From positions 1 to 34,570 of the forward strand of contig JAHFRP010000018.1 of NCBI GenBank assembly GCA_023266195.1: a DNA stretch of 34,570 nucleotides. Direction: 5' to 3'. This stretch comes from Sulfuricella sp. (GTDB lineage Bacteria; Pseudomonadota; Gammaproteobacteria; Burkholderiales; Sulfuricellaceae). This document shows positions 9,830 through 31,668 of this stretch, piece after piece. A program made the translations under genes and the position numbers. The notes beneath the pieces were generated by a model. The model was not told the DNA's origin, ran no database searches, and worked only from the letters and a program-made list of their open reading frames with translations. Numbering within the stretch: position 1 is the first letter of the stretch; each line of letters opens with the position of its first letter.

Positions 9830-10168
9830 TTACTTCATGTTTTCCGGCCCTTTGGCCTTCAGGCAATCGCTCATGAATTTCTTGCGATCCGGGCCTTTCA
9901 GGGTCTTCTCGCCGGCCGCCTTGTTGCAGGTAGCCATGGGGGTCAGTTTCGGCGCCGGTTCCGCAGGCGCAGCAGCCTCGGGAGCCTTGGCCCTCAGGCA
10001 TTCGCTCATGAATTTCTTGCGCTCGTCGCCCTTCAGTGCCTTCTCCCCCGCATCCTTATTGCAGGCGCCCATCTTGTTCTGCTGCGCGGTCGGCGCTTTT
10101 CCATCGGCGGCATAAGCGCCGGAAGCGAAGCCCACAGCCAGACACAACGCAATCAACGTGTTTTTCAT
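9830..10168 (-). CDS. Exported PsiF-repeat protein
   Basis: The 112-residue product begins with a clear Sec signal peptide (MKNTLIALCLAVGFASGAYA, cleavage after residue 20). It carries two PsiF repeats: CNKDAGEKALKGDERKKFMS and CNKAAGEKTLKGPDRKKFMS, each with a second Cys six or seven residues on (ECLRAK, DCLKAK). An Ala/Pro-rich linker joins them. E. coli PsiF is a phosphate-starvation-inducible periplasmic protein of unknown mechanism. The ATG at 10168 has GGAGAGAAC upstream; the longer reading frame would precede the signal peptide and is not used. The two repeats are about 70% identical, an internal duplication typical of the family. Confidence 0.93.
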   Translation of the reverse strand: MKNTLIALCLAVGFASGAYAADGKAPTAQQNKMGACNKDAGEKALKGDERKKFMSECLRAKAPEAAAPAEPAPKLTPMATCNKAAGEKTLKGPDRKKFMSDCLKAKGPENMK

Positions 10169-20622: not shown

Positions 20623-20790
20623 CTAGGAGCCTGTCGAGCTTAAAGGAAATCGGCTGCAAATCCGCCTGGCCGGTCCATATTTCGCCGCTTTCTTGGTCAA
20701 TAGAACAACTATTGACCTGCAAAACCGGCAAAATCTGTCCTCGCCCCGCCGAATTTTCGCTTCGATTCTTCAAGCCCGACAGGCTCCTAG
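20623..20790. mobile_element. MITE-like element, copy A (168 bp)
   Basis: The ends are 19-base terminal inverted repeats matching at 18 of 19 positions (CTAGGAGCCTGTCGAGCTT at 20623-20641, inverted at 20772-20790). There is no transposase. The internal sequence is nearly identical to copy B at 31507-31668 (about four differences), in the same orientation. It lies between the AsmA gene and the ATP-grasp gene. The minus-strand frame inside is shared by both copies but is probably a fossil or chance frame. Confidence 0.85.
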
Positions 20791-20822
20791 GCGACAAGAT
20801 TTTCGCAAACCGAGGGAGTAAA

Positions 20823-20861
20823 ATGGGCTCCTGTTCCATTTGCGAAAAGACCCCACCTTGA
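20823..20861 (+). CDS. Possible 12-codon leader frame upstream of the ATP-grasp gene
   Basis: An ATG at 20823 has the best ribosome-binding site in the area (GAGGGAG, five bases away). It encodes MGSCSICEKTPP, then a TGA (20859-20861) that overlaps the proposed TTG start of the next gene (TTGA). This may be a coupling leader peptide or the true N-terminus separated by a frameshift. Confidence 0.4.
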   Translation: MGSCSICEKTPP

Positions 20862-22066
20862 CCGATTCTGAAGTTCTGCCGGAATACCTCGGCCTCGCCG
20901 CGCTGCTGCGCCTGAGCTTATCGGGTGCGAACCTGACGCCGCTGTGCCAATCCCTGCTCGACCGGGCAAAGCAAGACCCGGACGACGCCTGCTCCCTGAT
21001 GGATGCCGGGATAATTTTCCAGTTTCACGGCAATCCGGAGATCGCATCGCAGCTGCAGCGGGAGGCACTCCGGCTACAGCGGCTTTACCGCATCCCCGCG
21101 CAACGCCCCGCCAGGCTGCGCCTGCTGGCGCTGATGGCGCCCGGCGAGGTGATGGCGAACGTTCCCATCGAGTGCCTGCTGGAAAATTCCGACATCGAGC
21201 TCGATATCTTTTACGCCACGGGCATCGACGACGATCCGTCGGAAATCCCGGATCACGACGTGCTTTTCGTCGCCATCGGCGAATCGGAAGCCAATCGCCC
21301 GATCCTTGAATCGTGGCTGCCGGTGCTGGACGTATGGCCGAGACCGGTGATCGACAACCCGCACCATATGGAGCGGGTAGCTCGCGACACCGCCTCGCGG
21401 TTGCTGCATTCCCGGCCCGGCATCGCGATGCCGCCCACGCTGCGCATCGGCCGGGACGAACTTCAGCGGATCGCGGCGGGAAACGGCTTCCCGGACGGCA
21501 TCGCCTTCCCCGTCATCGTCCGCCCCCTCGATTCCCATGCGGGCCACGACCTCTACAAAATCGACACCCCCGCCGAATTGTCGGACAAACTCGCCGCGAT
21601 GCCCGGCGATGAATTCTTCGTTTCCCCCTTCATCGATTATCGCAGCGGCGACGGCCTGTTCCGCAAATACCGCGTGATCCTGATCGACGGCCGGCCATAC
21701 GCCTGCCACATGGCGATTTCCAGCCACTGGATGATCCACTACCTCAACGCGGGCATGGCGGACAGCGCCGAAAAACGGGCCGAGGAAGCGCGCTTCATGG
21801 CCGATTTCGACCAGGTTTTCGCCGCCAGGCAGGGCGCGGCGCTGGCCGAAATCCATCGCCGCATCGGGCTCGATTATCTGGGCATCGACTGCGCCGAAAC
21901 CGCGGACGGCCGTCTGCTGATCTTCGAAGTCGATCCCGCGATGGTCGTCCATGCGATGGACCCGGTCGATGTCTATCCCTACAAACAGGCCGCCATGCAA
22001 AAAATCTTCGCCGCATTCCGGGCCATGCTGATCAAGGCGGCGGAGGGGCCGACAGGCGAGCGATGA
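20858..22066 (+). CDS. ATP-grasp-fold ligase-like protein
   Basis: The 402-residue product has an N-terminal helical region with a TPR-like look (LCQSLLDRAKQDPDDACSLMDAG). A middle domain follows (LRLLALMAPGEVMANVPIECL, DVLFVAIGESEANRPIL). From about residue 185 an ATP-grasp-like part includes FPVIVRPLDSHAGHDLYKID, DEFFVSPFIDYRSGDGLFRK and a metal-binding-style end GIDCAETADGRLLIFEVDPA. ATP-grasp enzymes form amide or thioester bonds through acyl phosphates. No ATG opens the frame; TTG at 20840 or 20858 are candidates, and I use the one coupled to the short leader frame. Its stop overlaps the next ATG (ATGA), so it is co-translated with the SerC-like gene. Confidence 0.78.
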   Translation: MTDSEVLPEYLGLAALLRLSLSGANLTPLCQSLLDRAKQDPDDACSLMDAGIIFQFHGNPEIASQLQREALRLQRLYRIPAQRPARLRLLALMAPGEVMANVPIECLLENSDIELDIFYATGIDDDPSEIPDHDVLFVAIGESEANRPILESWLPVLDVWPRPVIDNPHHMERVARDTASRLLHSRPGIAMPPTLRIGRDELQRIAAGNGFPDGIAFPVIVRPLDSHAGHDLYKIDTPAELSDKLAAMPGDEFFVSPFIDYRSGDGLFRKYRVILIDGRPYACHMAISSHWMIHYLNAGMADSAEKRAEEARFMADFDQVFAARQGAALAEIHRRIGLDYLGIDCAETADGRLLIFEVDPAMVVHAMDPVDVYPYKQAAMQKIFAAFRAMLIKAAEGPTGER

Positions 22067-23157
22067 ACTGTCTCAACTTCTCCGGCGGACCGGGTATTTT
22101 GCCCGAGGCCGTTCTCGCCGAAACCCAGCGAGCGATTTCCATGGTGCCGGAGGCCGGCCTTTCGATTCTGGGCATCAGCCACCGCTCGGACTGGTTCGCC
22201 GCCGTCGTGGCCGAAGCCGAACAGAACATCCGCGCGCTACTCAAGCTTCCCGAAAGCCACGCCGTGCTGTTCCTGCAAGGCGGCGCATCGCTCCAGTTCT
22301 CGATGATTCCGATGCTGCTCCTGCGCGGCAGCGGCAAAACCGCGGAATACCTGCGCACCGGCTACTGGAGCGCCAAGGCGATCCCCGAAGCGGCCCTCGA
22401 AGGCAAGGTGCGCGTCGTCTGGGACGGCGAGGCGGGCGGATTCCGGCGCCTGCCCGAGCCGGGCGAATTATCCTGTTCCGCGGATGCGGCCTACCTCCAT
22501 TACGTTTCCAACGAAACCGTCGAAGGCACCCAATTCCACGCCATTCCAGGCATCGACGGCGTGCCGCGGGTGTGCGACATGTCGTCGGATTTTCTCTCGC
22601 GCCCGTTCGACCCCGACCGCTTCGACCTGATCTACGCCCACGCCCAGAAAAACCTCGGCCCAGCAGGCGTCACCGTCGTCGTCGTCCGGCGCGACCTGCT
22701 GGACCGGGCGCCGGCGGAGCTCCCCGCTCTGCTCGACTACCGCCGGCATGTGGAAGCCCATTCCGTCTACAACACGCCGCCGGTATTCGCCATCTACGTC
22801 ACGATGCTGGTCACGCGCTGGCTGTTGAACGAGATCGGCGGGCTGGAAAACATGGCTTCGATCAACCGCCAGAAAGCCGAGAATCTGTACCAGGCGATCG
22901 ACGCCAGCGACGGGTTCTACCAGGGTTGGGCGGCGCCCGGAAACCGGTCGCTGATGAACGTGGTTTTCAGGCTGAAATCGGCCGAACAGGAAGCGGCCTT
23001 CCTGCAGCGGGCCACGGCCGCGGGGTTCAGCGGCCTGGCCGGGCACCGTTCGCTCGGCGGCATCCGCGCCTCGATCTACAACGCCATGACGCCCCAGGCC
23101 GTCACGCTGCTCTGCTCGTTCATGGAAGATTTCGCGCGTAGCGGGCGCGGCGTTTGA
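22063..23157 (+). CDS. SerC-like class V aminotransferase (phosphoserine aminotransferase family)
   Basis: The 364-residue protein is a clear SerC homologue: NFSGGPGILPEAVL (5-18), GISHRSDWF (37-45, substrate His/Arg), LQGGASLQF (71-79), SNETVEGTQFH (149-159), Asp172 and the PLP lysine Lys196 in AHAQKNLGPAGVTVVVVRRD. SerC normally makes phosphoserine from 3-phosphohydroxypyruvate and glutamate. Housekeeping serC usually sits with pheA-aroA in this group, so this copy, overlapping an ATP-grasp gene by four bases, could be a specialised paralogue, or the only SerC. Both readings are inference. Confidence 0.9.
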   Translation: MNCLNFSGGPGILPEAVLAETQRAISMVPEAGLSILGISHRSDWFAAVVAEAEQNIRALLKLPESHAVLFLQGGASLQFSMIPMLLLRGSGKTAEYLRTGYWSAKAIPEAALEGKVRVVWDGEAGGFRRLPEPGELSCSADAAYLHYVSNETVEGTQFHAIPGIDGVPRVCDMSSDFLSRPFDPDRFDLIYAHAQKNLGPAGVTVVVVRRDLLDRAPAELPALLDYRRHVEAHSVYNTPPVFAIYVTMLVTRWLLNEIGGLENMASINRQKAENLYQAIDASDGFYQGWAAPGNRSLMNVVFRLKSAEQEAAFLQRATAAGFSGLAGHRSLGGIRASIYNAMTPQAVTLLCSFMEDFARSGRGV

Positions 23158-23189
23158 ACAAGGCCGGATTTTCCTGAAAAAAGCAGTTG

Positions 23190-23219
23190 AACCGCAAAGG
23201 TTAACGAATTGCGGTTTTT
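23190..23219 (+). terminator. Rho-independent terminator after the SerC-like gene
   Basis: AACCGCAA (23190-23197) pairs with TTGCGGTT (23209-23216), continuing into a run of T. It lies 32 bases after the SerC-like stop and directly before the convergent nucleotidyltransferase gene. Confidence 0.7.
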
Positions 23220-23223
23220 AGGA

Positions 23224-23697
23224 TTATTTCAAGCGGGAAAGCCTGATCCTGTCGGGAATATCCTCGGGACGGCCGGTTTCTTTCGACATCAGCATCCCTT
23301 CGATATCGAGGACATTCACCGTAATCCCGTCGATCTCGCATCTTTCGATGTGATTCTTGTAATCTGCAAACTCCCTGGACGCCGCGACATACAAAATGTC
23401 GATCCCGATTTCTCCTTCGGCTGCGGTGGAAAAACCCTGATCGAGCCATTCCTTCTGTGGCAGGTAATCGAGCCTCAGCTTGCCGGAAATGGCCGCAATC
23501 GCGGCCATCAGCCGCGCGTTGTTGTCCGGATCGCGCGGGAAGATGCAATCGATGTCCTTGGTCATGCGCGGAAATCCATGTATGGCCATGGCCACGCCGC
23601 CAAGCAGCGCATACGTCACATTGTGCTTTTCCAGCTCGGACAGCACCAGCAGGATGTCATCGAGCGAAGGCGCGCGTCTGGCTTGCTCTTCGGGCAT
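23224..23697 (-). CDS. Nucleotidyltransferase, AbiEii/MNT-like (putative toxin)
   Basis: A 157-residue nucleotidyltransferase-fold protein. Key elements are LLGGVAMAIHG (31-41), the catalytic D-x-D at Asp48/Asp50 (TKDIDCIF) and a third acidic residue at Asp100 (EIGIDILYVA). Such proteins act as toxins of type IV-like systems (AbiEii, MNT/HEPN) or as small adenylyl- or CTP-transferases. I choose the ATG at 23697 (MPEEQARRAPSLDDIL); a longer frame to 23772 lies entirely inside the upstream gene. It overlaps the helix-turn-helix gene by 41 bases, so the pair is surely co-expressed. A+T content looks higher than in neighbours. Confidence 0.82.
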   Translation of the reverse strand: MPEEQARRAPSLDDILLVLSELEKHNVTYALLGGVAMAIHGFPRMTKDIDCIFPRDPDNNARLMAAIAAISGKLRLDYLPQKEWLDQGFSTAAEGEIGIDILYVAASREFADYKNHIERCEIDGITVNVLDIEGMLMSKETGRPEDIPDRIRLSRLK

Positions 23698-24106
23698 GGC
23701 GAATTTCCTCCTCTTCGCTCCAGGCGTTCTTTTCCGCCAAAGTCCTGAAATATCGCGGCTTGTCGCCGGCAACGGTCATCTGGACAAAAACATTGGCGGA
23801 CCGTTGCAACTGGTCGAATGTGCGCAAGGCATCCTGGCGTTTTTCCTTGCTGACGTGAGAAAGGATTGCGTCGATCGCTTCGGCGGTCTTGCGATCTCCG
23901 GCAAGAACTCGTGCGCGTTTTTTTTCCTCGAGCAATTTCGAAATGAATTTCTCGGCGATCAAGGGCATTTTGCGGTGATCGCCGGAGCGGACGTCGAGAG
24001 ACCATTTCTCGATGGTTCTGGCGCTAACGCCGATTTCCGACGCCAACTTCGGATAGGCCACCCCCAGCTCGCGCTTGGCCAGACGCAAAAATGTTTGTTG
24101 ATCCAT
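23657..24106 (-). CDS. Helix-turn-helix protein, putative antitoxin/regulator
   Basis: A 149-residue protein with an N-terminal helix-turn-helix (YPKLASEIGVSARTIEKWS, about 18-36) followed by charged helices (KFISKLLEEKKRARVLAGDRK, EAIDAILSHVSKEKRQD) and an Arg-rich tail. It is the first gene of a two-gene unit with a nucleotidyltransferase, which suggests an antitoxin or autorepressor. The promoter reads TTGATG, a 17-base perfect palindrome, TATATT, with the ATG only six bases further, so the mRNA is probably leaderless and autoregulated. The family is not one I can name precisely. Confidence 0.8.
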   Translation of the reverse strand: MDQQTFLRLAKRELGVAYPKLASEIGVSARTIEKWSLDVRSGDHRKMPLIAEKFISKLLEEKKRARVLAGDRKTAEAIDAILSHVSKEKRQDALRTFDQLQRSANVFVQMTVAGDKPRYFRTLAEKNAWSEEEEIRHARRASQTRAFAR

Positions 24107-24112
24107 TTTTCA

Positions 24113-24141
24113 AATATACCACCCCAATGGGGTGGCATCAA
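24113..24141 (-). promoter_or_regulatory. Promoter whose 17-bp spacer is a perfect palindrome
   Basis: On the minus strand: -35 TTGATG (24141-24136), spacer CCACCCCATTGGGGTGG (24135-24119), -10 TATATT (24118-24113), start codon at 24106. The palindrome occupies the spacer exactly, an ideal place for a dimeric repressor. The -35 overlaps the stop of the upstream CapK-like gene. Confidence 0.75.
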
Positions 24142-25433
24142 CCGGCTAACTGGCTGATCACGAACCGGTGCTTGCCCGACGCGGTGCGCTTGATCTCGTC
24201 CACGTACACCACTTCCAGCGCCATCCCGGCATCGACTTCGCGGCGGATTCTTTCGCCGAGCGCGTTCGCCGTTTCCGAACGCAGCCTGCCAGATGCGACC
24301 AGATTCAAGGTGATCTTGTCCGGTTCGCGCTGGACGAACTGGTACTGGGCGATGCCTTCCAGCCCATCCAGCAGGTGGATGAAATATGAGGGATAAAAGC
24401 ACTTTCCGCCGCGGGTGCGGATCAGGTCGTTGCTGCGGCACAGACCGATTTCCATCAGCGGGAACGGCGAGCCGCAGGCGCACTCGCCCTCCTTCAGCCG
24501 GCCCGAATCGCCGATCTCGTAGCGGATGAAAGGCATCGCCCGGTTGGTCAGCGAGGTGACGATCAGCCGGTGTTCATGCTCGATTTTGACCGACTCCAGG
24601 TAAACCATGTCGGTGAAGACATGCAGGTTGCCATGCCGGCATTCGCAGGCGATGTTGGGAACCTCCCGGCTGCCGTACTGGTTGAACACCTTGCAGCCGA
24701 ACGCCCGCTCCATCAACTCCCGCTGCCAGCCGTAGAGCACTTCGGCGGTCGAGAACACACCCCGCAGGGTGGCGGGCATCGGCATGTTGCGGTCGATGAC
24801 GTAGCGCGCGAGCTCGGCCAGGATCGAGGCGTAGCCCTGCAACAGGACGGGCCTGTACGAGGCGATGGTGGCGGCCCAGCCGCGCAGGTCGGCTTCGGTG
24901 TATTCATAGGCGCCGATGGTCTTCTCGGCGGCGATGTAGGCGTTCACTCTTTGGCCAAAGCCGTGGCCGCCTTTGATGTCCTGGCGGGCGCCCCAGAAAT
25001 TCAGGATCTTCTCGCCGGGCTTCCAGCCGGCCCACATGTAGCTCCTGGCCATGCCCGCGCGCATCAATTCGCCCTTGAACGCGTCATAGTAGAAAGACAC
25101 CGGTTTGCCGGTGGAGCCGCCGGTGTTGCCGATCTTCAAGGCACTCCGGTCGAAGTCCGCCGCCACCAGCCGGTCGCGATGCCGGATCACTTCGTCCTTG
25201 TGCAGGATGGGCAGGCCGCGGGCCGCATGTACATCGGCCTCGGCGTATTTTTCCCGGTAGAACGGCGTTTGCTCGTAGGCGTGGCGGACGATCGCGGACA
25301 AGTCGTGCCGCTGCTTGGCGAGAAGCTGCTCCCTGGTCAGCGCCTGGTTGCGCAGCAGTTCTTCGAGCAGGGCATATCTTTCCCGGCGCCGGCTTCTATG
25401 CAGCAGATGTTTGAGGCGGTAGATCACGCGCAC
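24138..25433 (-). CDS. CapK/PaaK-like adenylate-forming enzyme
   Basis: A 431-residue member of the phenylacetate-CoA ligase/CapK branch of adenylate-forming enzymes. These activate a carboxylate with ATP; CapK-type members sit in capsule and surface-polysaccharide loci and are mostly uncharacterised. Visible are RHAYEQTPFYREKY (50-63), the phosphate loop NTGGSTGKPVSF (103-114), FNQYGSREVPNIACEC with the YG(S/T)xE-like motif, a Cys-rich segment (CECRHG ... ECACGSPFP) that could bind metal, and a C-terminal lysine motif (TASGKHRFV). The start is GTG at 25433 or 25427, with no ATG. It is third in a minus-strand set after the TPP enzyme and glycosyltransferase-like genes, separated from the latter by a repeat. 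Confidence 0.86.
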   Translation of the reverse strand: MRVIYRLKHLLHRSRRRERYALLEELLRNQALTREQLLAKQRHDLSAIVRHAYEQTPFYREKYAEADVHAARGLPILHKDEVIRHRDRLVAADFDRSALKIGNTGGSTGKPVSFYYDAFKGELMRAGMARSYMWAGWKPGEKILNFWGARQDIKGGHGFGQRVNAYIAAEKTIGAYEYTEADLRGWAATIASYRPVLLQGYASILAELARYVIDRNMPMPATLRGVFSTAEVLYGWQRELMERAFGCKVFNQYGSREVPNIACECRHGNLHVFTDMVYLESVKIEHEHRLIVTSLTNRAMPFIRYEIGDSGRLKEGECACGSPFPLMEIGLCRSNDLIRTRGGKCFYPSYFIHLLDGLEGIAQYQFVQREPDKITLNLVASGRLRSETANALGERIRREVDAGMALEVVYVDEIKRTASGKHRFVISQLAG

Positions 25434-25468
25434 CCCGCTAGTAGTCAGTCAATATAAAACAAGAGCAT

Positions 25469-25565
25469 TCCCCCCTTTGAAAAAGGGGGGCTAGGGGGGA
25501 TTTGACAGCGTCGCCACTAGCCACGACCGTTAAATCCCCCTCAATCCCCCTTTTTCAAAGGGGGA
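25469..25565. repeat. CCCCCTTTGAAAAAGGGGG long inverted repeat
   Basis: Arms of about 34 bases (25469-25503 and 25532-25565) each contain TTTGAAAAAGGGGG units and their own small hairpin. This family is widespread in proteobacterial intergenic DNA. Next to it a lone TAGTAGTCAGTCAA end lies at 25439-25452. Together they separate the CapK-like and glycosyltransferase-like genes inside an otherwise collinear set. Confidence 0.8.
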
Positions 25566-25585
25566 GGCGGTCAGCCTCGCCGCAT

Positions 25586-27313
25586 CTATGTGTTAACGTG
25601 GCTGGCGGCCAGCCTCACCAGCGCTTCGACCCAGGCCGCCTCGTCTTCGGCATGGCGAGCGATCGCTTCGACGATCTCGGCGTGGCGCCGGGCCTTGCCG
25701 GCGGCGATGTTGGCGTAGGTGCGGTCGGCGAAATTATGCGCGATGTTGTCGATGAACAGCCTGAAGTTGCCGACCGCGTCGGAGTGGGTCGCGGACTGGT
25801 TCCACCACTTGTTCTGGTGGTGCGCGATGGCGCGCAAATTCTCCAGTTTTTCCAGGATCAGCCGGCGCTTCTCGCCGTATTGCAGCTCGATGTCGGCATG
25901 CGTCGCCGCCAGCGCCTCGGCGATGGCCTCGGCAGCCAGTTCAACTTCCGGATAGCCCATGGCGGTTAATTTTTCCATGGTGAACAGCATCACGTCGCCG
26001 TAAAACTGCCGCTCGAACTCCCCGGAAAGGTCGATGGAGGCGGCGCCGGCGGCGATGCCGGGGCGGAATTCCGCCTGGCCGGTGGTGCGCACGGTGCGCT
26101 TGTGCAGCATGGGCAGGTTGGCCGAGACGAAGCGCCCGCCCAATGCGGACTTGATCAGCCGCCCCAGCACCGGCCCCGCCATGCGGAGCTTGAGGGGCGC
26201 GAAGGGAATGAAGTACTTCAATCCCTCCGGCTTGAAAACATAGTTCCCGGTGTAGATGGTTCGGGCGGGCCGGATGCCGGCGATCAGGTCTTCGTGACGA
26301 TAATAGGTCTTGCGGGTGGGATGCTCGCCGTAGAAAAACCGGCCGAGCTTGCGCGAAAAATGGCTGAAACAGGCCGCGTTGTCGTGCTCGCCGCTCAGGG
26401 TACAGCGATAGCGGTAGGGCGCCTGCGCCGATTCGAAGCCGAACAGCGCGGCCATGTCGTGATAGGACGCGTCGTTCCCGTCGGGCTCGCTCGCGCCGTG
26501 GAATCCGCACGGCCGGGACGGGCCTTCGGCGCCGATCCGATCCAGGAAACCGACCACGTCTTCCAGGAAGTTGCCCGCCATCACCGCAGGCGACACGGGC
26601 GGATCGCCCACCACCTTGCCGGTGAGGATGGAGGCTCCGGTTTCGGAAAAAATCCGGTCCAGCTCGGACAGATAGTTGATCGCGTAAATATTCCTGTCGC
26701 CCGCCGGGGTGCCGACCTTGACCCGGAATTCCTGGTCGCTGTCGATGAAGTAGAACAGGATTTTTTCCGCGCCGCGCGCCATTTCGTTCAGCTTCAGGTA
26801 GGCGATGTTGCGCATCAGCGACGGGCCTTTGTGGTAAAAGGCGTTGCGGTCGGCACGGCCGAGTATTCGGGCCAGGGATTGCTGCTCCGCCGCGCTCAGC
26901 GCATCGATCTCGGCAAGCTGTTGTTCCAGGCCGAAATAGACGGTTTCGATGCCCTGCCCGCTGAAATAGCGCGCGATTTCCCGGTTGCGGGCGATGTTGT
27001 CGCCGTCCTTGGTGTCGTCGGCGATGACGACGGAAACCTTGCTGTAGCGGCCGTCGGAAAACCCGCCGTAGCCGAACGAGCGGCACAGGTGCAGCAGGCT
27101 GTCGAGGCAGCTTTGCAGGTGCTGCGGCCGGTCCGCCACCGGGATGACGATGACGAATTGGTGGCGGCGGTCGTCGCCTTGTTCGGCGATGAGCTGTTCC
27201 AGTTGGCGGAACGCGGCTTGATACGCCTCAAGCTGCGCCGTAGTCGGGCCTTGCCCCCACAGCGCCTGCTCAATGGCCGAAATGCGGGCCTTGCACACCT
27301 CGATTTCCGTCAT
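25586..27313 (-). CDS. Glycosyltransferase-like protein, GT-A fold (unassigned)
   Basis: The roughly 575-residue product starts with a helical lead-in, then a GT2-like Rossmann half: FVIVIPVADRPQHLQSCLDSLL (split at about 53-74) and KVSVVIADDTKDGDN. A DxD-type motif FIDSDQEF lies at about 189-196, and further conserved-looking segments are RPCGFHGASEPDGNDASYHD and YYRHEDLIAG. The last 170 residues are mostly helical. No membrane segments are seen. I infer a nucleotide-sugar-dependent transferase but do not recognise the subfamily. The ATG at 27313 follows CAGGGTGG; a GTG six bases earlier is possible. It begins 12 bases after the TPP-enzyme stop, so they form an operon. Confidence 0.72.
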   Translation of the reverse strand: MTEIEVCKARISAIEQALWGQGPTTAQLEAYQAAFRQLEQLIAEQGDDRRHQFVIVIPVADRPQHLQSCLDSLLHLCRSFGYGGFSDGRYSKVSVVIADDTKDGDNIARNREIARYFSGQGIETVYFGLEQQLAEIDALSAAEQQSLARILGRADRNAFYHKGPSLMRNIAYLKLNEMARGAEKILFYFIDSDQEFRVKVGTPAGDRNIYAINYLSELDRIFSETGASILTGKVVGDPPVSPAVMAGNFLEDVVGFLDRIGAEGPSRPCGFHGASEPDGNDASYHDMAALFGFESAQAPYRYRCTLSGEHDNAACFSHFSRKLGRFFYGEHPTRKTYYRHEDLIAGIRPARTIYTGNYVFKPEGLKYFIPFAPLKLRMAGPVLGRLIKSALGGRFVSANLPMLHKRTVRTTGQAEFRPGIAAGAASIDLSGEFERQFYGDVMLFTMEKLTAMGYPEVELAAEAIAEALAATHADIELQYGEKRRLILEKLENLRAIAHHQNKWWNQSATHSDAVGNFRLFIDNIAHNFADRTYANIAAGKARRHAEIVEAIARHAEDEAAWVEALVRLAASHVNT

Positions 27314-27325
27314 CGCCACCCTGCA

Positions 27326-28975
27326 CTATCGGGTCGAGACGTAATCGGGGAAGGCATCTTTGTCGATCATGATTTCGATCAGATTGATGGCGCCGGTCAG
27401 GTCGCTGTGGGCGAACAGGTCGTCGATATCGGCCTCGGACTCGATTTTCCGGTGGTTGATGCCGAACGACAGGGCCAGCCAGCGAAAGTCCGGATTGACG
27501 AAATCGCAGCCGATATAGCGTTCGCCGTAAAGCTGGAACTGGTTTTTGCGGATCAGGCCCATGGTCGAGTTGTTGAACACCACGACGTTGAGCGGGATGG
27601 CGTAATTCACCGCTGTCATGATTTCCATGCAGCACATCTGAAAACCGCCGTCGCCCAGAATGGCGAAAGTCGGCTTGGCGTCGGAAAAGCGGGCGCCGAT
27701 CGCGGCGGGAATGGCGTGGCCAAGCGAGGAAATGCCGGAATTCGGGAAATAGCGGTTGCCGCTCGACACGTGGAAGAAGTTTTGTGCGAACACAATGTTG
27801 TCGTCGAAGATCATCGCGTCGGCCGGGAAGCGCTCGGCCAGTTTGGCGTAGAACTTCTCCACCAGCGCGAAGCGGGACGGCGGCTTGGCCAGCCCGTCCA
27901 TGTGGCTCTGGAACTGGCGCAGGCTCTTTCTCTCCGCCCCGCTTTCCTCGATTCTTTCCAGCACTTCGGTCAGCACGTCCTTGATGTCGCCGTGAATGGC
28001 GACATCCGCCCGGAACACCTTTTCCAGCTGTTCCGGATCGTTGTCGATCTGGGCGATTTTCTTGTTTTCCAGCAGCTTCTCGTCCCACAGGTAGCTGGTG
28101 CGCTCGTTGAAGCCGGCGCCCAGAAACAGGACCAGATCGGCATGCTCGATCATGTATTTGTAGGCTGCGCCGTTCGAGGTGACGCCCAGACTGCCCAGCG
28201 ACAACTCGGAACCGTCGCCGATCACCCCCTTGCCCTTCAGGCTGGTGGTCACCGGGATCGCCAGCGCTTCGCTCAACTGCGCCACGGCTTCCTGCGCGCC
28301 GGATTTGATGCAGCCGTAACCCGCCACCATCACCGGATGTTTCGCCGCCACGATCAGCTCCGCCAGCGCATCCACCGGCAGCGGGCGCGGATGCGGCGGA
28401 TGGGCGCTGCGGCGGGTATTGACGCGCTCCAGCAGGTCTTCCTCGACCAGCTCTTTCTGGACGTTGTAGGGAAAACTGAGCAGCACCGGCCCAGCGTTGG
28501 AAGACAGCAGGATTTTCGACGCCTGGTTCAGCACGTGGGCCAGGTAGTCGGTCCGTTCCACGATCTTGTTGTAGCGGGTGATGCCCTTGAACAGCGCGGC
28601 CTGATCGATGCTGCCGCCCTCGCCGGAACTCTCCTGCAATCCGCCCTTGCCGAAGATGTAAGTCGAGGTCTCGCCGGTGATGACCAGGATCGGCTGCTTG
28701 TCCGCGTAAGCGTTGGCAATGCCCGTCACCAGGTTGGTCGCGCCGGGACCGGCGGTGGCGATGCAGGCGGAAATCCGCCCCGAAGCCCGTGCGTAGCCGC
28801 CGGCCATGAACGCGGCGCCCTGCTCGTGCTTGACCAGGACGCTTTGGATGCCGGAGTCGCGCAGGCTGTCGTAGACCGGCAGGATATGGGCGCCCGGCAT
28901 GCCGAAAATGATTTCGATGCCGAGGCGTTCCAGATACCTTACCAGTAATTCACTGACTGCTATTTTCATCGGCAT
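27326..28975 (-). CDS. Thiamine-diphosphate enzyme, acetolactate-synthase-like
   Basis: A 549-residue three-domain TPP enzyme of the acetolactate synthase (IlvB) group. The cofactor glutamate is Glu51 (VKHEQGAAFMAGGYARASG), and the TPP/Mg motif runs from GDGGFQ to FNNSTMG (about 440-468). The phosphate-binding TAGPGATNL and an intact middle domain are present. No ilvH/ilvN small subunit or ilvC follows, so it is probably not the housekeeping synthase. Relatives add acetyl units to sugars (YerE-type) or decarboxylate 2-oxo acids. The start is ATG at 28975 or 28969; no good SD is visible and a nine-codon frame from 28979 overlaps it. A 70-bp palindrome abuts the start. Confidence 0.88.
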   Translation of the reverse strand: MPMKIAVSELLVRYLERLGIEIIFGMPGAHILPVYDSLRDSGIQSVLVKHEQGAAFMAGGYARASGRISACIATAGPGATNLVTGIANAYADKQPILVITGETSTYIFGKGGLQESSGEGGSIDQAALFKGITRYNKIVERTDYLAHVLNQASKILLSSNAGPVLLSFPYNVQKELVEEDLLERVNTRRSAHPPHPRPLPVDALAELIVAAKHPVMVAGYGCIKSGAQEAVAQLSEALAIPVTTSLKGKGVIGDGSELSLGSLGVTSNGAAYKYMIEHADLVLFLGAGFNERTSYLWDEKLLENKKIAQIDNDPEQLEKVFRADVAIHGDIKDVLTEVLERIEESGAERKSLRQFQSHMDGLAKPPSRFALVEKFYAKLAERFPADAMIFDDNIVFAQNFFHVSSGNRYFPNSGISSLGHAIPAAIGARFSDAKPTFAILGDGGFQMCCMEIMTAVNYAIPLNVVVFNNSTMGLIRKNQFQLYGERYIGCDFVNPDFRWLALSFGINHRKIESEADIDDLFAHSDLTGAINLIEIMIDKDAFPDYVSTR

Positions 28976-28980
28976 TCATT

Positions 28981-29050
28981 CGTAGGATGCGGTGAGGCAC
29001 GAACCGCATCAGTCGCGAACGATGCGGTTCGTGCCTCACCGCATCCTACG
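28981..29050. repeat. Perfect 30-bp inverted repeat, GTAGGATGCGGTGAGG family
   Basis: The arms (28981-29010 and 29021-29050) are exactly complementary, with a 10-base centre. Each arm has a GTAG head and an internal GATGCGGT/ACCGCATC hairpin. It begins five bases upstream of the TPP-enzyme start codon. The rest of the gap to 29253 has CTCTCCC-type low-complexity repeats and no supportable gene. Confidence 0.88.
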
Positions 29051-29253
29051 CACTAACTCCTAACTCCTCACGGGACATGAATTCTAACCGAACCCGGCCT
29101 TCCCGAATAACCGTTTTTTTCGGCGGCCAACCCTCTCCCCTAGCCCTCTCCCGCAAGCACCCGCGAAGAGTGTCCCCGCCGGGTTCCCGCTGCTGCGCAG
29201 CGACCACGGCGAGACGGGCGAGGGGGAAAGTGGCTCGCTTCGCGAGTTTCACA

Positions 29254-30648
29254 CTAAACCGTGCCGTGATGAGGAAAGCGCACCGCAATCAGCGTGCCGT
29301 GGCCGTTCGCGCCAGCCGAGAGGCTGATCTCGGCGCCGTGCAGATTGATCACTTCGCGCACGATGGCCAGCCCCAACCCGCTGCCGGGCTGGCCGCTGCC
29401 GAGGATGCGGTAGAAGCGCTCGAACACGCGCTCGCGATGCTCTTCGGGAATCCCCGTGCCGTTGTCCTCGACGTGCAGCACCGCGCCGCCCTCTTCGTAG
29501 CCGGTGCGCAGCGTCACCGTGCCGCCGGATGGGGTGTAGCGGATGGCGTTGTCGAGCAGGTTGCCGATCATCTCCTGCAAACCGGGGGGATTGCCGCGCA
29601 CCGGCACAACCTGGCTCGAGCCTTCAAAGCCGAGGTCGATATTTTTCCTCAGCGCTTCGGGTACCCACAGCATGGTGGCTTCCTGCGCCAGCCGGTTCAG
29701 GTCGAGCATCTCGAACGAACTGTAGGCCTGTCCGCCCGGCTCGTTGCGCGCCAGCGACAGCAACTGGTTGACCAGGTGGCTGCAACGCTCCGCGCTGGTC
29801 AAAATCTGTTGCAGCGCATGCTGCACCCGCGCCGGGTCGTCCTCGCGAAGGGCCAGCTGGGCCTGCGTTTTCAGCCCGGCGAACGGGGTGCGCAACTGGT
29901 GGGCGGCATCGGCGCTGAAGCGCTTCTGCGCTTCCATCACCAGCTTCAACCGCTGCAATAGGTCGTTGACCGCTTCGATCAGGGGCCGCACTTCCACCGG
30001 CGCCTTGTTCTCGTCGAGCAGGCTGACGTCGTCGCGCGAACGCTGCGCCACCTCCTGGCGCAAATGTTCGAGCGGCATCAGGCCGCGCCCCAGCGCGTAC
30101 CAGACCGCGCCGCCCGCCAGGATGATCAGCAGCAGCTGCGGGATCACGATATTGCCGAGGATGCCGCGCGTCAGCGCCTGGCGCTTGCCCACGGTCTCCG
30201 CCATCTGCAGCAGGACGAAACCGCTGGGGTCGGCCGGCGCATGGAAGTAGCGCAGGCTGACCATGCGGATTTTCTCGCCCTTGAGCTCGCCGTCGCTGAA
30301 TACCGGTTCGTTCTTGCTGACCAGGAAGGCCGGCGGCCGTGGCAGCCTGACATTGCCGGCGATGACCCGACCGCCGGAGGTGGACACGGTATAGAAGGTT
30401 TTATCGCCGGTTTCGGCAACCTGGAGTTTGCTTGCCGCCGGGATGTTTTCGACGCCCGCCTGGCTGCCCAGCTTCAATTCCCCCGCCAATGCCCGCGCCC
30501 GTTCGATCAGCGCCAGGTCGTAGGGCTGGTTGGCGTAATTCAGCGTCGCCATGTAGCCCGCCGCGGTGCTGAATATCCACAGCACGAACAGCGGCGTGAA
30601 CAGCCAGTTCATGAGGTGATTGCGCAGCGAGAGGATGTCTTCGTTCAT
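29254..30648 (-). CDS. Sensor histidine kinase, two-component system
   Basis: A 464-residue inner-membrane kinase of the QseC/TctE type. TM1 is at about 13-33, a periplasmic sensor of the 2CSK_N kind spans 35-165, and TM2 is at about 168-186 (IVIPQLLLIILAGGAVWYA). A HAMP-like linker follows, then the HisKA domain with the phosphorylated His250 (FSADAAHQLRTPFAGLK). The ATPase domain has the N box (NLLDNAIRYTPSGG), G1 (VEDNGTGIP), F box and G2 (GSGLGLAIVREV). It lies downstream of its response regulator, separated by 107 bases filled with a palindromic repeat. Divergent placement from the DUF485/ActP genes suggests control of acetate or carboxylate uptake. Confidence 0.93.
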   Translation of the reverse strand: MNEDILSLRNHLMNWLFTPLFVLWIFSTAAGYMATLNYANQPYDLALIERARALAGELKLGSQAGVENIPAASKLQVAETGDKTFYTVSTSGGRVIAGNVRLPRPPAFLVSKNEPVFSDGELKGEKIRMVSLRYFHAPADPSGFVLLQMAETVGKRQALTRGILGNIVIPQLLLIILAGGAVWYALGRGLMPLEHLRQEVAQRSRDDVSLLDENKAPVEVRPLIEAVNDLLQRLKLVMEAQKRFSADAAHQLRTPFAGLKTQAQLALREDDPARVQHALQQILTSAERCSHLVNQLLSLARNEPGGQAYSSFEMLDLNRLAQEATMLWVPEALRKNIDLGFEGSSQVVPVRGNPPGLQEMIGNLLDNAIRYTPSGGTVTLRTGYEEGGAVLHVEDNGTGIPEEHRERVFERFYRILGSGQPGSGLGLAIVREVINLHGAEISLSAGANGHGTLIAVRFPHHGTV

Positions 30649-30662
30649 GGTTTTACTTTTGG

Positions 30663-30756
30663 GCTGGTAGCTTGTAGCTGGTGGCTTGTAGCGAAATCGT
30701 TGGCATCTGGAAGCTACTAGCTACGCGCTACCGGCTACAAGCTACAAGCTACCAGC
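30663..30756. repeat. AGCTGGTAGCTTGTAGC family repeat, copy 2
   Basis: Units of GCTTGTAGC and AGCTGGT repeat directly in the left half (30663-30692) and inverted in the right half (30734-30756). It is the same family as 912-1010. The right end reaches the stop codon of the response regulator, so the repeat lies within the two-component operon. Confidence 0.75.
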
Positions 30757-31421
30757 TAAATCTTATCCAGCAAATACCCCAGCCCGCGGATGGTGCGGAT
30801 GGTCACCCCGGCCGCCTCGATCTTCTTGCGCAGGCGGTGGACGTAGACTTCGATGGCGTTGCTGCTGGCTTCCTCGTCGTGGCCGTAGAGATGTTCGATC
30901 AGGTGATCCTTGCTCACCACCTTGCCCACCTTGGCGAGCAGGGTTTCCAGAACGCCCAGTTCACGGTGGGACAGTTCCACCGTTTCGCCGTGGATGGTGA
31001 CCCGCCGGCCGACGCTGTCGAATGCCAGTGCGCCGTACACCATCAGCGGGCTGGCGCCGCATTGCCCGCGCCGCAGCAGGGCGCGCACGCGGGCTTCGAG
31101 CTCGGGCAGGTTGAACGGCTTGGTCAGGTAGTCGTCGGCGCCCAGGTCGAGCCCCTTAACGCGGTCTTCCACGCCCTCGCGCGCGGTCAGGATGATCACC
31201 GGCACGTGCTGGTTGTGGGTGCGCAATTTTTTCAGGACGGAAAAGCCGTCGAGCTTGGGCAGGCCGAGATCGAGGATCACCAGGTCGTATTGCTCGACCA
31301 GAAGGATCTGCACTGCCTCCTTGCCGTTGCCGGCGCAGTCCACAGCATAGCCGGATTGCTTCATCGAGCGGCACAGGCCATCGAGCAGGACTTCATCATC
31401 TTCGACGATCAGGATGCGCAT
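30756..31421 (-). CDS. OmpR-family response regulator
   Basis: A 221-residue regulator: receiver domain with acidic pocket (VEDDE, 6-10), phosphoacceptor Asp51 (LVILDLGLP), a conserved Thr/Lys (LTAREG, DYLTKPF) and a C-terminal winged helix (ELSHRELGVLETLLAK, NAIEVYVHRLRKKIEAAG, IRTIRGLGYLLDKI). It resembles QseB/TctD. It precedes the histidine kinase gene on the minus strand and is divergent from the DUF485/ActP genes, with 283 bases between that hold MITE copy B. Confidence 0.95.
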   Translation of the reverse strand: MRILIVEDDEVLLDGLCRSMKQSGYAVDCAGNGKEAVQILLVEQYDLVILDLGLPKLDGFSVLKKLRTHNQHVPVIILTAREGVEDRVKGLDLGADDYLTKPFNLPELEARVRALLRRGQCGASPLMVYGALAFDSVGRRVTIHGETVELSHRELGVLETLLAKVGKVVSKDHLIEHLYGHDEEASSNAIEVYVHRLRKKIEAAGVTIRTIRGLGYLLDKI

Positions 31422-31506
31422 TTCAGTCTCAATCCGGTCGTAAGGTTTGTGTAAGCATGCAGGTATAGCATGAAAACATGGCCTATTTGAATAGGCTATG
31501 GAGCTA

Positions 31507-31668
31507 GCAGCCTGTCGGACTTAAAGGAAATCGGCTGCAAATCCGCCTGGCCGGTCCATATTTCGCCGCTTTCTTGGTCAATAGAACAACTATTGACCGG
31601 CAAAACCGGCAAAATCTGTCCTCGCCCAGCCGAATTTTCGCTTCGATTCTTCAAGTCCGACAGGCTGC
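31507..31668. mobile_element. MITE-like element, copy B (162 bp)
   Basis: Perfect 16-bp terminal inverted repeats (GCAGCCTGTCGGACTT at 31507-31522, inverted at 31653-31668) bound an element nearly identical to copy A at 20623-20790, in the same orientation. It lies between the response regulator and the DUF485 gene, 36 bases before the latter, so the transporter promoter must be inside it, downstream of it, or displaced. No obvious target duplication is seen. Confidence 0.85.

Follow-up and report, generated by a model that had tools for sequence, protein, structure and literature searches.

The window analysed here, the complete 34,570-nt contig JAHFRP010000018.1 of Sulfuricella sp. (assembly GCA_023266195.1), carries a conserved operon consisting of a thiamine pyrophosphate (TPP) enzyme gene and a gene for a predicted GT-A-type glycosyltransferase (GT), often followed by a gene for a CapK-like ligase. 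On balance, it appears probable that this gene set is one member of an operon family of Dsr/Sox-type sulfur-oxidising Beta- and Gammaproteobacteria with a glycoconjugate product and, as part of the same reading, that the two miniature inverted-repeat transposable elements (MITEs) flanking the surrounding 11 kb are late, independent insertions which delimit no unit. The original prediction had instead taken the whole MITE-bounded stretch for an exchangeable cargo carrying five enzymes of one set.

Linkage and protein families of the TPP-GT operon

Relatives of the GT were collected by searching a 20-row GT alignment against the genome_contigs collection, which returned 290 stretches, the best 80 of which (including the locus of a sister Sulfuricella genome) were kept, and neighbouring genes were located by tblastn. 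The TPP gene lay upstream of GT on the same strand in 79 of the 80 loci; in 78 its distance to the GT frame was no more than 300 nt, with the TPP stop at most 200 nt from the start of the GT frame in 76 of these 78. Both genes were likewise present in all 20 stretches around the relatives' GT hits (3.4 kb apart in L060), a set which overlaps the 80 loci, with at least five contigs recurring. Downstream, the GT stop was at most 100 nt from a third ORF in 47 of 61 loci, 20 of the 47 showing an exact 4-nt overlap, and the short spacing on both sides of GT suggests that the genes are coupled.

The third position is variable. The CapK-like gene was found in 37 of the 80 loci, in 36 within 300 nt after GT and in one (L140) 9.5 kb away, while a gene for a protein of about 178 amino acids (aa) with a GRCGST P-loop was the alternative in 26 loci (by ORF clustering; tblastn with three members returned the same 26). 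The two were never found in the same locus (0/80), and this alternation at one position suggests two ways of finishing the same core. One genome (G019; contigs C33 and C44, loci L061 and L063) contained two TPP-GT pairs, with the CapK-like gene beside only one of them. In addition, 12 loci had a Methyltransf_24-type gene (Pfam assignment of one member) on the opposite strand, 0.5 to 8 kb downstream of GT.

The TPP enzyme showed the three domains, the catalytic glutamate (Glu51) and the GDG..NN motif of the thiamine diphosphate (ThDP) superfamily, with all 20 aligned rows keeping Glu51, the checked GDG motif residues and NN. None of the 25 NCBIfam models listed reached its cut-off, and with 371.7 bits against 538.35 the protein scored too low for the acetolactate-synthase (acetohydroxyacid synthase) equivalog; the nearest PDB chain was BbmA, followed by acetolactate synthases. 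For the window GT, no Pfam match at E<=1 and, using a 47-row profile, no PDB sequence match at E<=1 was obtained; two relatives gave Pfam matches at E 0.05 to 0.15, and the only NCBIfam match was negligible (E 0.018). Its AlphaFold2 model (predicted local distance difference test score (pLDDT) 89.8, predicted template modelling score (pTM) 0.91) was matched by Foldseek to hyaluronan synthase, GlfT2 and the chondroitin polymerase K4CP, and the motif D193-x-D195 was invariant in 47 of 47 rows, as were D63, D101, D102, D239, D288, E332, H333 and R379. Fold and DxD motif place the protein among GT-A enzymes, although the E-values (2e-4 to 8e-4) are weak and the TM-scores low, and the model indicates helical additions to a GT-A core, representing a family without a name.

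The CapK-like ligase reached 109.1 bits with its best curated model (phenylacetate-CoA ligase/CapK), far below the cut-off of 700. The model of the alternative third protein (pLDDT 89.5) matched 3'-phosphoadenosine 5'-phosphosulfate (PAPS) sulfotransferases best (E 2e-5), with kinases next, and both the fold and the P-loop are those of PAPS sulfotransferases.

Association with sulfur-oxidation genes

Carriers of the GT include the sulfur oxidisers Sulfuricella, Thiobacillus, Sulfuriferula, Hydrogenophilales, Thiodiazotropha, Sedimenticola, Thiohalomonas and the Escarpia and Lamellibrachia endosymbionts, and also Tepidiphilus and other Gammaproteobacteria. In a class-level sample of 304 genomes (own genome included, and counting only dsrA and soxB matches over the cut-off), GT was present in 21, dsrA in 98, soxB in 127 and RuBisCO in 166 genomes. 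The 21 GT genomes, which include one with broken GT remnants only (G184; E 9e-14), carried dsrA in 20, soxB in 21 and RuBisCO in 20 cases (hypergeometric P 5e-10 for dsrA and 4e-9 for soxB); without G184, dsrA was in 19 of 20 GT genomes (P 2e-9). Given the co-occurrence with soxB, the dsrA genes are probably of the oxidative type.

Among RuBisCO-positive genomes, GT was present in 20 of 90 with dsrA versus 0 of 76 without (P 2e-6), so that autotrophy, as marked by RuBisCO alone, leaves the pattern unexplained and was rejected as confounder. The corresponding figures were 20/88 versus 1/39 among soxB-positive genomes (P 0.003) and 20/83 versus 0/28 among genomes positive for both RuBisCO and soxB (P 0.002). 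Within the dsrA-positive genomes, the differences by soxB (20/88 versus 0/10) and by RuBisCO (20/90 versus 0/8) were not significant. The RuBisCO marker (PF00016) is coarse: among 14 control genomes, 5 gave a match over the cut-off, one of them Bacillus subtilis. At E<=0.001, dsrA and soxB matched 6 and 10 of these 14 genomes, respectively, but none over the cut-off, which is why only the latter kind of match was counted.

Counted by family, all 15 GT families were among the 54 dsrA families, one of them (f176) by way of another genome; the P value by family was calculated for an assumed 150 or 160 families in the sample. In other families of the same order, dsrA was present in 3 of 3 GT genomes relative to 7 of 39 overall, and in the own family it was over the cut-off in 15 of 18 other GT genomes; genome G530 likewise contained both genes. 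A phylum-level sample of 299 genomes gave three strong GT matches, all from the own order, with four weak matches (E 2e-4 to 8e-4, short stretches) not being counted. An aprA-type gene was located within 10 kb in 4 of the 80 loci and also in L075 (checked with TIGR02061 in L097 and L075). The own genome contains two dsrA genes over the cut-off (G000:C17:150216-151463 and G000:C10:62375-63625), as do G003, G004, G005, G008, G014 and G015.

The flanking MITEs and the neighbouring genes

The original prediction was correct in that two near-identical direct copies bound the approximately 11-kb segment (Table 1): the repeat pair at 20623-20785 and 31504-31666 spans 163 nt at 96% identity in the same orientation, with starts 10,881 nt apart. 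Alignment of 30 copies revealed the element to be a near-complete palindrome, because of which the shared orientation of the two copies carries little meaning. Copy B with its flanks gave an RNA folding z-score of -7.1, and the outermost arm bases covary, being GG..CC in copy A and GC..GC in copy B, which looks like mutual correction of the arms. The terminal inverted repeats, short length and TA duplication are those of an IS630-type MITE; of the 30 aligned copies, 26 had CTAG on either side and 4 on one side, and these ends fit the IS630 target, CTAG with the TA duplicated. No autonomous IS630 partner with the MITE's ends was found in the own-genome assembly (36 contigs): the sole PF13358 (DDE_3) match was partial and its 2.4-kb locus lacked the end motif, and a partner element within the assembly was rejected on finding this fragment only. 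The left part of the window contains a separate direct repeat at 9843-10093, made up of two 116-nt units of 73% identity with a start-to-start distance of 135 nt.

The own genome (3.12 Mb; the window is the whole of contig C19) contained no fewer than 40 copies of the flanking MITE, and 107 end-motif matches with at most one mismatch suggest about 50. Neighbouring pairs no more than 10.9 kb apart numbered 10, three of them in direct orientation, relative to a chance expectation of 5.5 for 41 copies or 8 for 50 (the expectation was computed with 41 copies and the pairs were counted among the 40 listed). The flanking pair is unremarkable in this genome. Of the 21 genomes searched, 14 had related copies, the own genome among them.

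In the sister genome (G001, contig C5), the gene order AsmA, ATP-grasp, SerC, CapK, GT, TPP, histidine kinase, response regulator, ActP is kept, with both the AsmA/ATP-grasp and the RR/ActP (response regulator/ActP) junctions free of MITEs. The toxin-antitoxin (TA)-like pair is missing from the sister's SerC/CapK gap of about 140 nt, and the sister's GT and CapK genes overlap by 4 nt, whereas in the window they are split by a GC-rich palindrome. This insertion has CCCCCTTTGAAAAAGGGGG-type arms, and it alters the last GT residues relative to the sister. Most likely, judging from this comparison, the window strain gained both MITEs and the GC-rich palindrome; the difference in the TA-like pair could be a gain in the window strain or a loss in the sister.

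That the 11 kb form a composite mobile or exchangeable island between the two MITEs is consequently very improbable. The direct copies exist, and in principle they could recombine; nevertheless, the block is present in the sister with neither MITE, an outcome which the original prediction had itself named as showing the linkage to be accidental. The segment is thus not confined to genomes in which the MITEs flank it. The flanking AsmA and ActP genes are syntenic in the sister as well, the own genome holds its dozens of copies and ten close pairs, and no GT homologue was matched in plasmid or viral collections. The island was therefore rejected as the segment's origin on the sister's empty junctions and the copy statistics, and the case illustrates how a repeat pair may prompt a false cargo boundary.

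Table 1. Features of the segment between and including the two MITE copies
Feature	Position	Strand	Basis or remark
MITE copy A	20626..20787	+	context C-TA-(element)-TA-G; element boundaries from letters
RimK-like ATP-grasp protein	20840..22066	+	weak NCBIfam match, E 2.7e-5; outside TPP-GT operon
SerC-type aminotransferase	22063..23157	+	over NF009112 cut-off; adjoins ATP-grasp gene
Nucleotidyltransferase and weakly HTH-like partner, TA-like pair	23224..23772 and 23657..24106	-	absent from sister
CapK/PaaK-like adenylate-forming ligase, 431 aa, often third in the operon	24138..25433	-	sub-cut-off NCBIfam PaaK-type matches
GC-rich palindromic insertion, GT/CapK spacer	25434..25585		comparison with sister
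GT-A-like glycosyltransferase, 577 aa, second gene	25586..27319	-	predicted fold, invariant DxD
TPP enzyme, 549 aa, leading gene of conserved pair	27326..28975	-	Pfam TPP_enzyme_N/M/C
Histidine kinase	29254..30648	-	domain matches; groups with actP, not enzymes
Response regulator	30756..31421	-	domain matches; groups with actP, not enzymes
MITE copy B	31507..31668	+	right-hand TA = AA; element boundaries from letters

The gene types predicted between the copies were borne out by domain matches for the SerC-type, TPP, histidine kinase and response regulator proteins; the nucleotidyltransferase was just over the Pfam cut-offs (DUF6036 26.6 bits, AbiEii 22.6 bits). The GT-A core was supported by structure, and the ATP-grasp and CapK-like assignments by weak and distant matches, respectively. 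The overlapping partner of the nucleotidyltransferase gave an HTH_23 match only (E 0.03), and a defence role of the pair was rejected after PADLOC returned no match.

The proposed five-enzyme set came apart. TPP, GT and CapK-like genes co-occur in distant genomes, while the ATP-grasp gene was near GT in one of 80 loci, that of the sister, and SerC in two, that of the sister and L082, whose edge has a 40% SerC fragment; a single five-enzyme pathway was rejected on these grounds. Strong ATP-grasp relatives (E <1e-90) were found in 14 of 60 other genomes searched, and SerC adjoined ATP-grasp in 3 of 13 non-sister genomes' loci (L158, L168 and L170; 1.5-kb flanks). ATP-grasp and SerC are a unit separate from TPP and GT (with or without CapK). 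As predicted, the two-component genes belong with actP and not with the enzymes: this neighbourhood was confined to the window and the sister, other histidine kinase and response regulator matches being 23-42% identical.

Proposed function and comparison with known systems

No known pathway matching TPP, GT and CapK together was found, which agrees with the original prediction; of its two suggested products, a surface decoration or a small metabolite, a TPP/GT/CapK glycoconjugate is plausible. The TPP enzyme would make an acyloin or a decarboxylated keto precursor, to which the GT, as its modelled GT-A core suggests, could join a sugar; alternatively, the GT may build the sugar part. The third enzyme would then cap the product by acylation or sulfation, the gene at this position varying across the operon family between the CapK-like ligase, the PAPS-sulfotransferase-like protein and neither. 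The resulting glycoconjugate would most likely be associated with the cell surface or with sulfur globules, a carrier role being the boldest proposal.

Several observations weigh against an operon family tied to Dsr/Sox sulfur oxidation. GT occurs without TPP in reach in L122, and TPP lies 3.4 kb away in L114; 17 of the 80 loci have neither third gene, 5 of them having less than 200 nt of room. The substrate of the TPP enzyme is not readable from its sequence, and none of the 50 Foldseek matches listed for the GT had a TM-score (by query length) above 0.34. The P values for the association of GT with dsrA and soxB are uncorrected for relatedness and therefore too small. One GT genome (G294) has only a contig-edge dsrA fragment (338 bits) and no RuBisCO match; in the own family, GT occurs without dsrA over the cut-off in G002 (79% complete) and G009 (74%), and with sub-cut-off dsrA pieces only in G010 (100% complete), while G007, G018 and G020 have dsrA without GT. 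As many as 68 of the 88 dsrA- and soxB-positive genomes lack GT, and GT is therefore not required for Dsr oxidation as such. Finally, the aprA-type gene was the only sulfur-oxidation gene identified near the operon, in 5 loci.

An ordinary lineage-specific surface polysaccharide or glycolipid, with the Dsr/Sox tie due to shared ancestry, gene exchange and habitat and no role in sulfur oxidation, would accommodate both the few loci with an identified sulfur gene nearby and the 68 genomes without the operon, and surface-glycan loci commonly contain CapK-like, GT and sulfotransferase genes. Such a product is nevertheless less likely than the favoured reading, since no flippase, polymerase or sugar-nucleotide gene was found in the Methyltransf_24 gene and the 14 recurrent-neighbour clusters scanned (most clusters being unscanned), and since the GT is absent from all 76 RuBisCO-positive, dsrA-negative genomes and yet spread over 15 families. 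Less probable still is a small soluble product unrelated to surfaces, for example a glycosylated compatible solute or signal: the operon has no transport gene, and mannosylglycerate synthase and mannosyl-3-phosphoglycerate synthase were weak Foldseek matches at ranks 21 and 43, respectively, but the better-ranked matches were polymerases (hyaluronan synthase, GlfT2, K4CP), a sulfotransferase or ligase cap would better suit an exported conjugate, and the Dsr association would be left unexplained.

Within the favoured reading of a Dsr/Sox-associated glycoconjugate operon, a more specific and quite speculative version is that the product is dedicated to zero-valent sulfur, as a globule coat or anchor or as a low-molecular carrier to Dsr. 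The coating of stored sulfur and its delivery to the cytoplasmic Dsr enzymes are an unsettled question; a passage of PMC3397948 gives glutathione amide persulfide as the assumed carrier and also refers to an 'as yet unknown sulfur donor'. A GT family which tracks dsrA and soxB across 15 bacterial families, including tubeworm and clam symbionts, provides a concrete gene target for this question.

Among known systems, the flanking elements resemble IS630-type bacterial MITEs in being short palindromes with CTAG ends, in their many copies and in their occurrence in multiple genomes, and differ in that no full-length transposase with matching ends was found in the own genome. The TPP enzyme shares three TPP domains, the catalytic Glu and the NN motif with acetohydroxyacid synthase and BbmA-type enzymes, and an FGKG-LQES stretch with BbmA; it differs in its sub-cut-off scores and in its position beside this GT in 78 of 80 loci. 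The sulfotransferase-type protein, which comes from related loci and not from the window, has the fold and GRCGST P-loop of PAPS sulfotransferases (TPST, 3-OST, Cpz8, SgdX2), from which it differs in its small size and in giving no Pfam or NCBIfam sulfotransferase match. With hyaluronan synthase, GlfT2 and K4CP, the window GT has in common a predicted GT-A core and an invariant DxD, and it is set apart from them by the lack of a PDB sequence match or a usable Pfam or NCBIfam match, and by the extra helical parts at its N- and C-termini.

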